A stretch of DNA of 34,196 nucleotides, taken from positions 1 through 34,196 of the forward strand of contig JAUSIH010000039.1 of the NCBI GenBank assembly GCA_030648205.1, given 5' to 3'. This document shows positions 8,554 through 16,635 of the stretch, in pieces; position 1 is the first letter of the stretch; the number at the start of each line of letters is the position of its first letter. The notes beneath the pieces are model-generated. The model was not told where the DNA came from, made no database searches, and worked only from the letters and a program-made list of their open reading frames with translations. This DNA comes from Dehalococcoidia bacterium. GTDB taxonomy: Bacteria > Chloroflexota > Dehalococcoidia > JAUSIH01. Made by a program: the position numbers and the translations under genes.

Positions 8554-8561
8554 AACACGTC
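8554..8561 (+). repeat. target-site duplication, left copy
   Basis: AACACGTC immediately before the left terminal inverted repeat is repeated exactly at 11380-11387, just after the right end. An 8-bp duplication fits the 8-9 bp made by IS1-family transposases. Confidence 0.9.
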
Positions 8562-8578
8562 GGTAGTGTCCTAATTTG
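8562..8578 (+). repeat. left terminal inverted repeat
   Basis: GGTAGTGTCCTAATTTG, the exact reverse complement of 11363-11379. Confidence 0.93.
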
Positions 8579-8864
8579 AATCCGTGAGAATTGTCTCCAG
8601 ATAGTCTAGTTCCTCGGCGATGGTCTCCTCAGCCACTTCTTTTGGAGACTGCCCTGGTTGTCTCCGTTTGCCCCTGTAGTTGTCCCAAAGCCGGTTTGCC
8701 GAGGGGCTTATTAGTTTCTGTCGTTGCAATTTGGACAGGGAGTTCCCGCGTTCCTTCAGCACATAGCTGACGAGATGGCCCGCGACGATGGCGGCACGCC
8801 TCTTATAACGGTCACTGACGTGTATGCCAGACAAAAGGGTCACTAGGTCGTCATGACTAGGCAT
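8571..8864 (-). CDS. hypothetical protein, third cargo gene
   Basis: The 97-residue protein is not recognised. It is mostly helical and charged, with a basic middle (KLQRQKLISPSANRLWDNYRGKRRQ) and an acidic C-terminus (EEELDYLETI-like). The ATG at 8864 overlaps the end of the preceding cargo gene by 8 bp, suggesting translational coupling; GAGGAG lies about 10 bases upstream. Its TAG stop is inside the left terminal repeat. Confidence 0.65.
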   Translation of the reverse strand: MPSHDDLVTLLSGIHVSDRYKRRAAIVAGHLVSYVLKERGNSLSKLQRQKLISPSANRLWDNYRGKRRQPGQSPKEVAEETIAEELDYLETILTDSN

Positions 8865-9159
8865 TACGAGCACGCTCCTCTGCCGCTATCGCTGCCCTCA
8901 CTGCCTTCTCCGGCGAGTCCACAGGCCCTTGGTGGAGCACGGCCACAAATCGGCGTTTCCGGCCCGTTGTGGCGTGTGACCATGCATAGCAGCGCGTCGC
9001 CGTCGGATGGCCCTTTAGGTCGAATACCTGAACGACGCCATCCCATACCATCCGCCCCTGGAACGTCTCTATGACTGGAACGGACTCGACCCACACGGAC
9101 TCGCACCCATGCAGATTCCGGATGGTTTTCTTTAGGGCTTCCTTAGAGGTTTCAGACAT
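8857..9159 (-). CDS. hypothetical protein, second cargo gene
   Basis: The 100-residue protein has alternating strands (ESVWVESVPVIETFQG, VVQVFDLKGHPTATRCYAWSH, RRFVAVLHQGPVDSP) and a C-terminal helix (EKAVRAAIAAEERARNA), consistent with a compact alpha+beta fold. No family or active site could be assigned. It starts 7 bp after the P63C gene and overlaps the next gene by 8 bp, so it is the middle member of a three-gene operon. Confidence 0.7.
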   Translation of the reverse strand: MSETSKEALKKTIRNLHGCESVWVESVPVIETFQGRMVWDGVVQVFDLKGHPTATRCYAWSHATTGRKRRFVAVLHQGPVDSPEKAVRAAIAAEERARNA

Positions 9160-9166
9160 AGGTGAC

Positions 9167-10297
9167 CTAAGCTCTCGTTTTGCTATTGCGTAGAGGTATG
9201 GGGACTCCCCAAGCGATGTCAGCGAAGGACATTTGCAATGGCGTCTTTTTGAAGACGTGGGAGAACTTCGCCTTGAAGTCGTCCATATCGTGGCACAATT
9301 TCATAATCGTAATGACACGTTCGATTTGGATGGTCACCTGATCACGTCCGTATTTTTTTAGCCACATATGGTGGTTTTGGAGAAAATGGGGGTTTGGGTT
9401 TTTTTTGCGAAGTTCGCGGCCCACATCTGCGTCAATAGCGTCATAGACGAACATCATCACATATTTACCCCATCGAAGCGGGCGGGAATGTGGTGAGTAG
9501 TGTACTGACTCCAATCGAGCTAGCTCAAACCAAAACTCCTCAGGAAACATCCTAGCCCACTCCTGCATTTCCTCAGCGATGAACGCTTGTAGCTTGATTT
9601 GAAGGTCTTGCTTCTTCTTAACCTTGTCATACCCTGTCGCTTCATCTACAAGAGCCGTGATGCCAACACGGGCGAATCCACGCATGAGTATGACGCATTG
9701 TTCAGCGATGTGTACCTGTTGGGGTTGCAACGTCCCCGCCTGCCGCGCAGCTAAGACAGCTTCGCATATGTCACCGAGCACGTCAGCTTCATAGCTATAC
9801 GCCGACTGTCTCCGAAGCGTTTTGAAGACGACTGGATTCCCGGTCACCTTATAAAGTGCATCCGACACGAATGGCTTCAGTGTCTTTTGCCCTACGAAGA
9901 AGGCAAGCCGGTCACCACCTCCCCTACTACTACCACCTCGCGCCATTCCCAGGGCTTGCACCATAGCGCGTTGGTGAAGAACGCGCCGGCCATCATTCAA
10001 CACATGGCACGGAATCTCGGCTCCGCCAATCTTCACCACGCCTGAAAACAATGCATATGGCATTGTTGGTTCGCCTAATGTGCCCATCGGGGCAAGGGAC
10101 TTGGGCTGGTCACCTAGCGACTCGGAGGTTGCGTCGGTCGTAATTACCTTGCCTGCCTTCTTCCATCTTGTCAGAACAGCTTTGCGCGCAATCTCGCTTC
10201 GCTGTTCTGGTGTTGTGCTGGATACTCTTGCCCTACCTCCCTTTGACGCACCTAGTTTACTTAGTGCCCTAGCGTTTTCATTAATAGGTTCAGTCAT
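9167..10297 (-). CDS. P63C-domain protein, first cargo gene
   Basis: The 376-residue protein has a basic N-terminal motif (residues 14-45: KLGASKGGRAR, TPEQRSEIARKA, TRW), a middle region with GRRVLHQRAMVQALGMARGG and FFVGQKTLKPFVSDAL (about 103-148), and a C-terminal P63C domain (about 215-335: LVDEATGYD, EWARMFPEEFWFELARL, RWGKYV, LRKKNP, HHMWL). P63C is a domain known from phage and mobile-element proteins, of unclear biochemical role; the basic N-terminus suggests DNA or RNA contact. ATG 10297 is chosen for GGAGG 7 bases upstream. It is transcribed divergently from the transposase. It may regulate the element or benefit element or host; this is not shown. Confidence 0.85.
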   Translation of the reverse strand: MTEPINENARALSKLGASKGGRARVSSTTPEQRSEIARKAVLTRWKKAGKVITTDATSESLGDQPKSLAPMGTLGEPTMPYALFSGVVKIGGAEIPCHVLNDGRRVLHQRAMVQALGMARGGSSRGGGDRLAFFVGQKTLKPFVSDALYKVTGNPVVFKTLRRQSAYSYEADVLGDICEAVLAARQAGTLQPQQVHIAEQCVILMRGFARVGITALVDEATGYDKVKKKQDLQIKLQAFIAEEMQEWARMFPEEFWFELARLESVHYSPHSRPLRWGKYVMMFVYDAIDADVGRELRKKNPNPHFLQNHHMWLKKYGRDQVTIQIERVITIMKLCHDMDDFKAKFSHVFKKTPLQMSFADIAWGVPIPLRNSKTRA

Positions 10298-10325
10298 GTC
10301 TTGTCCTCCTCTGGTCACCACCAAC

Positions 10326-10354
10326 ACAATACTCCTTTTAACCTAGAGAGTCAA
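10326..10354 (-). promoter_or_regulatory. promoter of the cargo operon
   Basis: On the minus strand the -35 box TTGACT (10354-10349) and -10 box TATTGT (10331-10326) are 17 bp apart and lead into the P63C gene, with a short leader. Confidence 0.65.
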
Positions 10355-10377
10355 TACGTGCCCGACTAAGTATTGAC
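10350..10377. promoter_or_regulatory. inverted repeat joining the divergent -35 boxes
   Basis: GTCAATAC (10350-10357) and GTATTGAC (10370-10377) are perfect inverted copies with a 12-bp spacer and overlap both divergent -35 boxes. A related CAATACG unit recurs at about 10378-10384. A protein bound here could control cargo and transposase together; otherwise it simply reflects two similar -35 boxes facing apart. Confidence 0.5.
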
Positions 10378-10401
10378 AATACGTGCTGGGGCAAGTATAA
10401 T
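10373..10401 (+). promoter_or_regulatory. consensus promoter of the transposase leader
   Basis: TTGACA (10373-10378), a 17-bp spacer and TATAAT (10396-10401) match the sigma-70 consensus exactly. Transcription would begin near 10408, about 140 nt before the transposase ATG, producing a long structured leader. Confidence 0.8.
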
Positions 10402-10415
10402 ATTGGCAATGAAAA

Positions 10416-10444
10416 GCCCCAAGGTGTAGCGAGCACCTTGGGGC
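10416..10444 (+). other. perfect hairpin in the transposase leader
   Basis: GCCCCAAGGTG (10416-10426) pairs with CACCTTGGGGC (10434-10444) around the loop TAGCGAG. It lies close to the predicted transcript start. With no U-tract it is not a standard terminator; a role as a stability, attenuation or binding element is possible. Confidence 0.7.
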
Positions 10445-10450
10445 GGATAT

Positions 10451-10520
10451 GGGGCGGCGGGACGGTTCCCAGGCTGGACTCTACACCCTGGCCCACGGGG
10501 TTCGACTCCCCACCGCTCCA
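10451..10520 (+). ncRNA. tRNA-like sequence in the transposase leader
   Basis: GGGGCGG (10451-10457) pairs with CCGCTCC (10513-10519) over seven positions with one G-U, followed by a discriminator-like A. A T-arm-like hairpin has loop TTCGACT (10501-10507) with GGGG/CCCC stem. A small D-like hairpin (GGGA 10459-10462, TCCC 10467-10470) and a central stem CAGG/CCTG (10470-10473, 10487-10490) occupy the rest. There is no regular 7-nt anticodon loop and no encoded CCA, so it is not an ordinary tRNA gene. It could be a tRNA or tmRNA remnant or a tRNA mimic. Confidence 0.4.
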
Positions 10521-10548
10521 CACTCCATTATACAAGAGAGGTAGCAGA

Positions 10549-11370
10549 ATGAATAGACTCAGTTCCGACCTCCAGGCAACCGTACTCGGAGCGCTTGTTG
10601 AAGGGGCATCAATCCGCTCAGTGGAACGCATGACAGGGGTTCACAGAGACACAATCATGCGGCTCGCCGCGCGCGTGGGCAACTCCTGCCATCAAATGAT
10701 GGACGAGTCAATGCGCGGGCTTCAATGCCGTCGCCTTGAACTGGACGAGATATGGTGCTTCGTCGGGAAGAAGCAGCGGCATGTGACGGCGGATGACGAC
10801 CGCACGCAGGTCGGCGACTTCTGGACATGGGTCGCAATTGACGCAGATACAAAGCTGGTTCCGAGCTACCGCGTGGGCAAGCGGGATGCGGCAACGGCCC
10901 AAGCATTCGTCGCCGACCTGGAATCCCGTCTCGCCAACCGCGTCCAACTCAACTCCGATGGGTTGCGCTTCTACGTGGAGGCTGTTGAAAGGGCCTTTGG
11001 TGCGGACGTGGACTATGCCCAGATTGTAAAGTCATACGAGGCGGAGCCTATTGGACCTGGTAGGTACAGCCCGCCCAAGGTCGTCTCAGTGGAGAAAGAA
11101 TTGATGGTCGGTAGCCCTGATATGGACGTGGCTTCTACGTCCTACGTTGAACGCCAAAATCTCACGATGCGGATGTCCATGCGTCGCTTCACCCGACTCA
11201 CCAATGGATTTTCCAAGAAGTCTGATAACCTACGCTCGGCGGTTGGGCTGCATTTCGCCTATTACAACTTCGTGCGCCGACACGCGACGCTCAAGACTAC
11301 TCCCGCGATTGCGGCGGGTGTGGCTGACCGCCAGTGGACGGTGCGGGATTTGGTGGAGCGGGCAAATTAG
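10549..11370 (+). CDS. IS1-family-like transposase
   Basis: The single-frame, 273-residue DDE transposase begins with a helix-turn-helix segment (GASIRSVERMTGVHRDTIMRLAARVG, residues 19-44). The likely catalytic residues are D66 (ELDEIW), D137 (NSDG) and E201 (YVERQNLTMRM). The C-terminal AYYNFVRRHATLKTTPA is characteristic of the IS1 group. Unlike classical IS1 it needs no programmed frameshift. AGAGAGG precedes ATG 10549; the frame is open upstream to 10438, but that part lies in the structured leader. Its stop lies within the right terminal repeat. Confidence 0.9.
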   Translation: MNRLSSDLQATVLGALVEGASIRSVERMTGVHRDTIMRLAARVGNSCHQMMDESMRGLQCRRLELDEIWCFVGKKQRHVTADDDRTQVGDFWTWVAIDADTKLVPSYRVGKRDAATAQAFVADLESRLANRVQLNSDGLRFYVEAVERAFGADVDYAQIVKSYEAEPIGPGRYSPPKVVSVEKELMVGSPDMDVASTSYVERQNLTMRMSMRRFTRLTNGFSKKSDNLRSAVGLHFAYYNFVRRHATLKTTPAIAAGVADRQWTVRDLVERAN

Positions 11371-11379
11371 GACACTACC
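11363..11379 (-). repeat. right terminal inverted repeat
   Basis: Reverse complement of GGTAGTGTCCTAATTTG, identical to 8562-8578. Confidence 0.93.
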
Positions 11380-11387
11380 AACACGTC
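11380..11387 (+). repeat. target-site duplication, right copy
   Basis: AACACGTC, identical to 8554-8561. Removing the element and one copy restores a short intergenic region between the peroxiredoxin and peptidase C26 genes. Confidence 0.9.
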
Positions 11388-12184: not shown

Positions 12185-12201
12185 GGTAGTGTATCAGTTT
12201 G
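12185..12201 (+). repeat. possible relic end of a related IS
   Basis: GGTAGTGTATCAGTTTG matches the 17-bp terminal repeat of the complete element at 13 of 17 positions, including the first eight. No matching right end was found before 14 kb, so it is a solo or decayed end, or chance. Confidence 0.4.
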
Positions 12202-12214
12202 GAGTCAAGAGCCG

Positions 12215-12249: not shown

Positions 12250-12468
12250 ATGGAAAAGAAGAAGCAGCGCAAGCCAAAGAAGGAACACGAATTCGCCGCC
12301 AACGCTTTTCGCGTGGTTCAAGAGGCGACAAGGCAGTCTACCCAACAAACCGAAGCGGGCAGACTCGGCGGGCTAAAGGGCGGGAAGGCGCGGGCCGCGA
12401 AGCTAACGCCAGAGCGACGGCGGGAGATAGCGCGCAAGGCAGCGCAATCTAGATGGAGTCGGGTTTGA
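12250..12468 (+). CDS. small basic protein sharing the P63C N-terminal motif
   Basis: The 72-residue, highly basic protein has a C-terminal half (LGGLKGGKAR, TPERRREIARKA, SRW) that closely parallels residues 14-45 of the P63C cargo protein 2 kb away. The N-terminus is Lys-rich (MEKKKQRKPKKE). Such motifs are common in small mobile-element proteins and suggest nucleic-acid binding; the function is unknown. A promoter ends 6 bp before the ATG. Its 3' end overlaps that of the convergent gene at 12449 by 20 bp. Confidence 0.6.
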   Translation: MEKKKQRKPKKEHEFAANAFRVVQEATRQSTQQTEAGRLGGLKGGKARAAKLTPERRREIARKAAQSRWSRV

Positions 12469-12880
12469 CAAGACCCTTCTCTATAACATAACTGCCATGC
12501 GGCGTTGACAGGTAGCCAATCTCCGCTATACGTCCAATTAGTTCGTGCAAGTTGTCGGTTTCGCCTCCTCGCTCCATGTACTCGGCAAGACCTTCTGTAA
12601 CTTCCGTCAGACGTTCGAGAAGTACGCCAAATGACGCCTTGTTCAGAGCCGCAGGTGTAGGTTGTGCCCTCTGTGTAAGAGTGGAGTGAGTTGCCTGCAA
12701 TACCCAATGCAATAGAACAAGGTCCCTGTTCCAATACCAGTTCAGGTTCCGGCTGAGTTCAGTGAACAAGGCACTGAAGAAGAAGACCTTGCGGAGCGGG
12801 TCAGACTCCTCGCGCATCTTAGTGGCGGCGAATCGGTACTCCTTAGCTAGGCGTTTCTGGACATCAGGCGGGAATCGCAA
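12449..12880 (-). CDS. hypothetical third gene of the TA-like operon
   Basis: The 143-residue protein is predicted all-helical, with a basic N-terminal helix (PPDVQKRLAKEYRFAATKM) and a long amphipathic part rich in aromatic residues (FFFSALFTELSRNLNWYWNRDLVLLHWVLQ). No family is recognised. The TTG at 12880 is preferred because AGGAGG lies 9 bases upstream; another TTG at 12904 would add eight residues. It overlaps the HTH gene by 17 bp, so translation is probably coupled. It may be a third toxin-antitoxin component or an unrelated passenger. Confidence 0.6.
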   Translation of the reverse strand: MRFPPDVQKRLAKEYRFAATKMREESDPLRKVFFFSALFTELSRNLNWYWNRDLVLLHWVLQATHSTLTQRAQPTPAALNKASFGVLLERLTEVTEGLAEYMERGGETDNLHELIGRIAEIGYLSTPHGSYVIEKGLVKPDSI

Positions 12881-13340
12881 CTTTTTGTTCCTCCTGTTTT
12901 TCAATATTCGTCAAGTTGCTGGCGTGTTTGGAGTAGTAGTCGCTAATCAAGGACAAAGGGGACACGTGTTCCATGTGGCGTTGCTCTTGTTCTTCGGCAT
13001 AACTCGGCGGCACGAGCTTTTCGGGATTGACGCTAACAACCCAATCCAAGAACTCGTTGAATGGAGCTAACTGAATAATCAAGCCTAGGTCAAATGCCCG
13101 CGCCACACGCTTCAGTGAATTCAAGCTAACCCCTGAGTAATCGGGGTTCTCCAATCGTGAGACTTGGACCTGTCTCATGCCATCGGCAGCCTCGCCTAAT
13201 TGTTCCTGCGTCCATTTCCGTTGCTCACGAATGGCTCTGATCTGAGTCGCTACCATCTCCTGAACATAGTCGGCAACGAATTGGCTACGGAAGTTGGGGT
13301 CTCGCAGAAGATTCTCTAGCTGTTGTTTTCTAGTAAGCAT
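12864..13340 (-). CDS. XRE-family HTH protein, likely antitoxin
   Basis: The 158-residue protein has a Cro/CI-type helix-turn-helix at about residues 30-90 (ATQIRAIREQRKWTQEQLGEAADGMRQVQVSRLEN, then LNSLKRVARAFD). The C-terminal 60 residues are longer than in minimal antitoxins. It follows a HigB/RelE-like gene with a 25-bp overlap, the order seen in toxin-first HigBA-type modules, so it should bind and neutralise the toxin and repress the shared promoter. ATG 13340 has a weak GTGAGG upstream. Confidence 0.82.
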   Translation of the reverse strand: MLTRKQQLENLLRDPNFRSQFVADYVQEMVATQIRAIREQRKWTQEQLGEAADGMRQVQVSRLENPDYSGVSLNSLKRVARAFDLGLIIQLAPFNEFLDWVVSVNPEKLVPPSYAEEQEQRHMEHVSPLSLISDYYSKHASNLTNIEKQEEQKVAIPA

Positions 13341-13735
13341 GTCGGCCTCACCTGGCTTGTTCGGTTCAGTATACGTGTTCGGCGTTCAATGGCTGTATCT
13401 AGGATTCCTTGGGGTCTATACTGGTCATTTTGTTCCTGCCCTCCTGCCAATAACCAGATTTCGCCACGTCCTTTATTTCCGTAGCACGCGAATACTCTGT
13501 ACTGTGTGTTGTTGATCTTGAACCTAATCGCAATCAAGTCGTTGTGTTTGCCATGAAGCACTTCATATCTGGGCGGGTTAGGCCGTCCCTCAGCATTCGG
13601 CAGTTGAAATATCGCCACAAGCCTTGATCTAATTTTGCCCACCGTTGGTTCTCTGAATTCGTTGAGCCATTGACTAATTAAGTTGTCGCCACTGGAGTCC
13701 ACATAATCCCAAAACGTCCAAGTGACAGTAGACAT
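13316..13735 (-). CDS. HigB/RelE-like (Gp49-type) toxin
   Basis: The 139-residue protein resembles phage-derived Gp49-like/HigB toxins of the RelE superfamily, which cut mRNA on the ribosome. Features are an N-terminal helix region (SQWLNEFREPTVGKIRSRLVAIFQL), the RYEVLHGKHNDLIAIRFKINNTQYRVFACYG strand series with basic residues, and a following hydrophobic strand (GEIWLLAGG). The C-terminal 30 residues are an atypical extension. It is the first gene of a three-gene overlapping operon. AT-rich third positions suggest transfer. Confidence 0.78.
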   Translation of the reverse strand: MSTVTWTFWDYVDSSGDNLISQWLNEFREPTVGKIRSRLVAIFQLPNAEGRPNPPRYEVLHGKHNDLIAIRFKINNTQYRVFACYGNKGRGEIWLLAGGQEQNDQYRPQGILDTAIERRTRILNRTSQVRPTCLLENNS

Positions 13736-15831: not shown

Positions 15832-16635
15832 ATGCACATCATTGTCTGCGTCAAGCAAGTCCCCGACCCGGAAGCCCCCTTCGCGAACTTCAAGATTGAC
15901 TCCGCGACCAACAAGGTCATTCCGCCCCAGGGCGTCTCGCCCGTCATTAATGGGTTTGACGAGCAGGCTGTGGAGGCGGCGCTTCGCATCAAGGACAGCC
16001 AGGCAGGTGTCAAAATCACCGTTATCAGCGTGGGCAACGATCTGGTCATGGACGTCATCAAGAAGCCCCTGTCTATGGGCGCCGACGAGCTTGTCCTGGT
16101 CCAGGACCCCGCCATTGAGAACGGTGACAGCCATACGACAGGCGCGGTCCTGGCGGCGGCCATCAAGAAGGTGGGCGCGTTCGACCTGGTGCTCTGTGGC
16201 CGGCAGGCCTCCGACTGGGACCAGGGGCAGGTCCCACTTGTGCTGGCGGAGCTTCTGTCCATCCCTGTGGTCACCATTGCGAAGAAGGTGGAGATGGCCG
16301 GAGCCGCGGTGAAGGTGGAGCGCGTCGTGGTGGACGGCTTTGAGACGGTGCAGGCGCCGCTCCCGGCGTTGGTCACAATCAGCAACGAGCTCGGCGAGGC
16401 GCGCTATCCCACGCTGAGGGGCATCATGGCCGCGGGGCGCAAAAAGCCCACGGTCTGGTCCGCCAAGGACCTGGGGCTTGAGTCCGGCCAGGTCAGCCAG
16501 AACGCCAACCGGGGTAGGATGCTCAAGGTGTTTGTCCCGGAGAAGCGCAGCAAGTGCGAGGTCATCTCCGCGGACAGTCCCGCCGAGGCCGGCGTCAAGC
16601 TGGCCGCCCGCCTGCGCGAAGACAAGGTTATCTAG
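15832..16635 (+). CDS. etfB: electron transfer flavoprotein, beta subunit
   Basis: The 267-residue protein has the ETF-beta nucleotide-binding fold: MHIIVCVKQVPDPEA at the start, NGFDEQAVEAALRIKD, and DLVLCGRQASDWDQGQVPLVLAELL (family signature region, about 120-145). ETF carries electrons from acyl-CoA and related flavin dehydrogenases to the respiratory chain. ATG 15832 is where homology starts, with a GAGGG upstream. It is followed 44 bp later by etfA, the obligate partner. Confidence 0.95.
   Translation: MHIIVCVKQVPDPEAPFANFKIDSATNKVIPPQGVSPVINGFDEQAVEAALRIKDSQAGVKITVISVGNDLVMDVIKKPLSMGADELVLVQDPAIENGDSHTTGAVLAAAIKKVGAFDLVLCGRQASDWDQGQVPLVLAELLSIPVVTIAKKVEMAGAAVKVERVVVDGFETVQAPLPALVTISNELGEARYPTLRGIMAAGRKKPTVWSAKDLGLESGQVSQNANRGRMLKVFVPEKRSKCEVISADSPAEAGVKLAARLREDKVI

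Follow-up and report, generated by a model that had tools for sequence, protein, structure and literature searches.

A transposase gene in the genome of a Dehalococcoidia bacterium is preceded by a structured leader, one part of which resembles a tRNA. What is this RNA, and why does a transposon carry it? The gene lies in a window of 34,196 nucleotides, the whole stretch of DNA that was analysed. The original prediction regarded the segment as a tRNA or tmRNA mimic, as a cargo RNA, or as a fragment of a tRNA picked up in an earlier insertion. Examples of tRNA mimics exist in tmRNA, in plant viruses, and in a few mRNA leaders. Judged from its sequence, the segment is best read as a transposon-borne RNA that is probably derived from tRNA-Ala and alanylated.

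The leader belongs to an intact transposon of 2,818 bp (positions 8562-11379). The ends of the element are perfect 17-bp terminal inverted repeats, GGTAGTGTCCTAATTTG on the left (8562-8578) and CAAATTAGGACACTACC on the right (11363-11379), flanked by identical copies of the 8-bp target-site duplication AACACGTC at 8554-8561 and 11380-11387. As expected for the IS1 family, the repeats begin with GGT and the duplication is in the range of 8-9 bp. The same terminal repeat bounds the related elements at L026, L027, L069, and other loci, again with 8-bp duplications.

Three genes of the element lie on the minus strand. A small passenger ORF (8571-8873), whose stop codon falls inside the left repeat, has no match in Pfam or NCBIfam. 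Gene B (8857-9159) codes for a small accessory protein with no Pfam match and with tblastn matches at most related loci. The third is a P63C-domain passenger gene (9167-10297; Pfam PF10546, 57.5 bits; PHROG 2384) that runs divergently from the tRNA-like structure (TLS). On the plus strand, the TLS is followed by an IS1-like DDE transposase (10549-11370), present as a single copy in the genome, which scores 33.1 bits against Pfam PF03400 (cutoff 24.1) and 67.8 against the NCBIfam IS1 model (cutoff 100). Most of these transposases come with protein B (LHGC...VWEG...CYAWS), whether a TLS is present or absent, and the protein may be a core accessory factor. The predicted folds of P63C and gene A have no significant match in the PDB, and a partnership of the TLS with either was rejected, since each also occurs without it. 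Outside the element, a second repeat end, GGTAGTGTATCAGTTTGG, lies at 12185-12202. It is of the type that bounds L130 and is followed by genes that look like toxin-antitoxin genes (12449-13735); no right-end partner for it was found up to position 16500.

The leader itself is largely as first described. A sigma-70 promoter, TTGACA-17-TATAAT, occupies 10373-10401 on the plus strand and matches the consensus at 12 of 12 positions; L014 has an equally perfect promoter at the same distance. The perfect 11-bp hairpin, GCCCCAAGGTG-TAGCGAG-CACCTTGGGGC, was found at 10416-10444, and most relatives have a strong hairpin of different sequence 5' of the TLS or tRNA. A plus-strand intrinsic terminator was rejected, the hairpin having no run of T after it; a weak one may exist on the minus strand.

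The TLS extends from the acceptor to A73 (10451-10520, plus strand). Its acceptor strands, GGGGCGG (10451-10457) and CCGCTCC (10513-10519, with the discriminator A73 at 10520), pair at seven of seven positions, and the third pair is G-U (G3 with U70). The T arm (10496-10512) carries the loop TTCGACT at 10501-10507 and has a C-A mismatch as its outermost stem pair. The two further arms that had been noted are also present. One is D-like (GGGA-CGGT-TCCC, 10459-10470), as drawn in a constrained fold, and varies among relatives. The other closes a loop of seven nucleotides, CTCTACA (10479-10485). Thus the view that the segment has no proper anticodon loop does not hold: an anticodon-like loop exists and is conserved in the family as YUYUACA. 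The transposase start codon follows 25 nt after the 73-nt TLS core (10451-10523).

Thermodynamic folding and standard tRNA searches leave the copy in the window poorly recognized. The 146-nt leader is more stable than chance (z = -3.1). Its free minimum-energy fold as a single sequence (-35.2 kcal/mol) is not a cloverleaf, the constrained cloverleaf reaching -31.8 kcal/mol, so that proof of the TLS has to be comparative. ARAGORN, and Rfam at its curated thresholds, gave no match in the window. Covariance models for tRNA and tmRNA, which had been proposed as a check, both score the segment below threshold (29 bits for RF00005; 14.2 bits against a threshold of 47 for tmRNA), and the best of the below-threshold Rfam matches are tRNA-like families and tmRNA.

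Such scores, together with D and anticodon arms that are weak and variable, are what would be expected of a degenerating tRNA or a functionless remnant of an insertion site. The comparison of relatives tells against this. A transposase search yielded 90 related loci, taken with 1.5-kb flanks, so that TLSs farther off may be missed; many of the loci come from metagenome bins and may carry a wrong organism name, and the transposase tree is a quick version. In an alignment of 12 close relatives that was not fitted to any model (A2), 95.6% of cells are paired and there are 15 double changes. None of 500 shuffles did as well, and slid versions of the alignment paired at less than 64%.

A model built from A2 was then used to find more distant TLSs. 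They were recovered from Verrucomicrobiota, Planctomycetota, Myxococcota, Chloroflexota, and viral contigs, and most lie 250-450 nt upstream of the transposase. The model R1 found TLSs in relatives beyond its training set at E <1e-9, these E-values being rough. Altogether 31 homologues are known from six phyla and viral contigs, nearly all of them adjacent to this IS1-like transposase or a remnant of it. Their alignment is 95.7% paired, with 90 double-change cells against 27 in shuffles, an acceptor paired at 100%, and compensatory changes at 11 of 15 pairs; being fitted to the model, it favours the model's own structure. The 7-bp acceptor and the T arm, with its TTCRANY loop, both covary. The concern that 10451-10520 might show no covariation, or might align to nothing beyond this copy, is thereby answered by both alignments and by the number of homologues. 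A protein-coding cause of the conservation was rejected, because the frame of the TLS relative to the start codon differs and several relatives contain stops.

A pattern scan of 400 Chloroflexota genomes returned, besides the window, mostly tRNA-Val-like genes. In a pattern scan of viral contigs most hits were ordinary tRNA-Val, the real TLSs being those of L157, L166, and L184, with a partial one in L175. In L157 (2731-2808) and L166 (3476-3552) an intact TLS is followed by a mere remnant of a transposase (MNRL... start).

The identity of the mimicked tRNA can be read from the acceptor. Alanyl-tRNA synthetase (AlaRS) classically recognizes its tRNA by a G3:U70 pair, with no need to read the anticodon. 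This pair is present in 29 of the 31 TLSs and A73 in 30, the window having both; acceptor pairs 5, 6, and 7 have changed on both sides in 12, 15, and 15 of the 31, respectively. When a model of the TLS alone was run on 251 Chloroflexota genomes, its best ordinary matches were tRNA-Ala genes at 24 of the 25 loci checked. The host's own tRNA-Ala has the acceptor GGGGCTG/CAGCTCCACCA. In addition, six relatives (L067, L078, L080, L058, L059, and L030) exceed the Rfam tRNA threshold with 34-51 bits. The identity pair, the model matches, and these six relatives indicate that the TLS descended from, or converged on, the acceptor half of tRNA-Ala. With the covariation, and with tRNA-Ala as the nearest ordinary family, they bear out the idea of a tRNA mimic: there is little doubt that the TLS is a mimic of tRNA-Ala conserved in the transposon, and it is likely, to judge from its identity elements, to be alanylated.

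The idea of a captured tRNA fragment is refuted. The TLS lies within the element at a depth of about 0.9 kb, and in six phyla transposases of this family come with this same RNA. Being internal to an intact transposon, the TLS is not an end of the element, nor is it a piece of target that was captured. Repeats with exact duplications enclose the TLS or tRNA in the window, L057, L069, L086, and L130. Many relatives have no TLS, as a remnant would allow: in an Acidobacteria clade of 32 loci, elements of the same type have no detectable TLS, which shows that it is dispensable. Nevertheless, the covariation, the near-invariant G3:U70, the internal position in intact elements, and the survival of the TLS beside decayed transposases in L157 and L166 make a functionless remnant very improbable. 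A search of the Acidobacteria elements for 8/4 or 9/3 tRNAs found none near the transposase; L075 has an ordinary tRNA gene far upstream.

Another reading is that the TLS acts only in cis. AlaRS, EF-Tu, or ribosomes would bind it and tune translation of the transposase, and no separate RNA would be made. Binding of ThrRS at the thrS leader is a precedent for a synthetase that tunes translation in this way. In the clade of the window all 12 members have the TLS, including L003, where a small divergent gene sits between it and the transposase, and 11 of the 12 share the leader arrangement of the window. The distance from TLS to transposase start is 22-46 nt in all 11 loci measured, behind one promoter. 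That TLS and transposase go together is more than chance: across the 90 transposase loci, perfect acceptor-plus-T-arm units lie upstream on the same strand in 26 cases and on the other strand in one, a bias that is partly due to common descent; downstream there are one and two (three in total), and shuffles gave none. Transposase leaders are also known control points. The ISPpu9 transposase has a structured 5' UTR, with two small RNAs and a fold of the mRNA (PMC8450116); it is like the window in having structured RNA upstream of the transposase gene, and the abstract of that study names no tRNA mimic.

The arrangement is different in other clades, which place the TLS separately or on the opposite strand. 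In the Verrucomicrobiota clade the TLS and the transposase are separated by a small regulator gene that runs divergently; L059, L077, and L078 have the TLS on the opposite strand. In neither arrangement can the TLS be a simple leader. Some members also form full cloverleaves. A role purely in cis is therefore rated as distinctly unlikely.

The loop raises the further possibility of decoding. Most members have the usual YUYUACA. Placed by stem geometry, the loop has UUA as its middle triplet in 15 of 31 members and CUA in 9 (YUA in 24), which corresponds to stop codons, and U33 is present in 29. The triplet is different in some distant members (UGG, UAG, UAA, UUC, AUA). An alanine anticodon (NGC) occurs in at most two of 31 under either reading, those under the shifted one described below, and the window is without it. 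The TLS could thus be a tRNA that works in trans, charged with alanine and reading non-alanine codons. By stem geometry it would read UAA or UAG and be a natural alanine suppressor or mistranslator. The independence of AlaRS from the anticodon and the variation of the triplet between members would fit such a role. So would the near-normal cloverleaves of L067, L078, and L080, which ARAGORN calls tRNA-Stop, and the tRNAs of odd body and anticodon pairing that other clades carry some 200 nt upstream of the transposase.

Several observations speak against decoding. By the same stem geometry 29 of 31 loops have C37, which is abnormal for a tRNA. If the loop is instead aligned to those of tRNA-Ala, the triplet shifts by one and becomes UAC; position 37 is then normal, and nine members have C33. 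No ORF with an in-frame stop in need of suppression was found in the window's element or in TLS-bearing relatives, and of the long chromosomal ORFs in the window, a GC-rich Chloroflexota segment, more end in TAG than in either other stop codon, so that suppressing amber codons efficiently would come at a cost. In L148, the sole checked case of an in-frame-TAG transposase beside a TLS, the TLS would read CCA. A decoding tRNA in trans is accordingly considered unlikely. The same low rating applies to the broader proposal that a multi-phylum DNA transposon family carries mobile mistranslator tRNAs, alanine-charged and with wrong, mostly stop-reading anticodons, which alter decoding in the host or in the element's own transcripts.

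Single in-frame TAG codons occur in several transposase copies (L148, where the transposase is on the minus strand, G133, G181, and G354). They are probably due to decay, and would be relevant if suppression were real. Read-through of the transposase stop was rejected: neither the type of stop nor the extension behind it is conserved, and genes ending in TAG are normal for the host. Pairing between hairpin and loop was also considered. In the window GGTGTAG of the hairpin complements CTACACC of the TLS; L014, L016, and L087 lack such a match, which was therefore put down to chance.

The preferred reading remains a tRNA-Ala-derived RNA that would be processed from the transposase transcript. 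It would be transcribed from the strong promoter at 10373-10401, behind the 5' hairpin. Host enzymes would handle it as a tRNA, with a 5' cut by RNase P, 3' trimming, and addition of CCA, and AlaRS would alanylate it via G3:U70 and A73. In the clade of the window, excision would yield a transposase mRNA with a leader of 22-46 nt. Since only a short leader would be left, the module would couple transposase expression to the tRNA machinery and free a small alanylated RNA. The conserved non-alanine YUYUACA loop hints at one more contact, for which the ribosome is the simplest candidate. An alanine shape and charging signal combined with a wrong anticodon suggest that the element borrows the tRNA machinery of its host. 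Taken as a whole, the scheme of a functional TLS, descended from tRNA-Ala and standard in an IS1-like passenger-bearing transposon, with this course of transcription, processing, and loop contact, is somewhat more probable than otherwise. Against it stand the separate or opposite-strand placement of the TLS in other clades and the Acidobacteria elements in which no TLS is detectable. That the TLS serves mainly to process or regulate the transposase transcript is a tentative suggestion; control of transposase expression, as first envisaged, is possible.

The TLS can be compared with several known RNAs. With tRNA-Ala, the best ordinary match of its model, it shares the acceptor and T arm, G3:U70, and A73; it differs in its short D arm, its non-alanine loop with C37, the 5' hairpin, and its carriage by a transposon. 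The tRNA-like domain of tmRNA (ssrA) likewise has an alanine acceptor half on a divergent lower half, but the TLS lacks a tag reading frame and a long insert, falls below the RF00023 threshold, and is not called by ARAGORN. Tymovirus 3' tRNA-like structures, a weak Rfam match at 19.6 bits, also join the top half of a tRNA to an mRNA. The TLS, in contrast, is bacterial, lies 5' of the gene, and has alanine rather than valine identity. Allo-tRNAs and allo-tRNA-like sequences have been described near transposon genes, and some of them overlap an ORF related to transposons (Mukai et al. 2017, as summarized in the review PMC7609411). As that review presents them, they are of the 8/4 or 9/3 type and serine-type, whereas the TLS is 7/5 with alanine identity.

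Literature searches, in which Mukai et al. 2017 was covered through the review alone, returned no published description of a transposon-borne tRNA-Ala mimic. If the reading is true, such a mimic, as a conserved part of DNA transposons in six phyla, would be a new route by which a mobile element uses host tRNA enzymes, and mistranslation in nature might arise from it. It also makes the irregular tRNAs near transposon genes of soil bacteria, so far described only loosely, a concrete subject of study.

Other members of the transposase family have RNAs of their own. In L086 (1297), L088 (1298), and L130 (1281), tRNA genes lie 200 nt upstream of the transposase, and in L075 (602) about 900 nt. These tRNAs combine serine anticodons (GCU, ACU) with bodies that lack the long variable arm typical of tRNA-Ser, and L041 has a long-variable-arm tRNA with G73 and the anticodon CAA. 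All five are possible mis-decoding tRNAs. Finally, different leaders that appear structured by eye are found in other subclades: L057 and L063 (about 130 nt before the transposase), L006 and L083, and L075, L089, and L090. These could be further RNA families.
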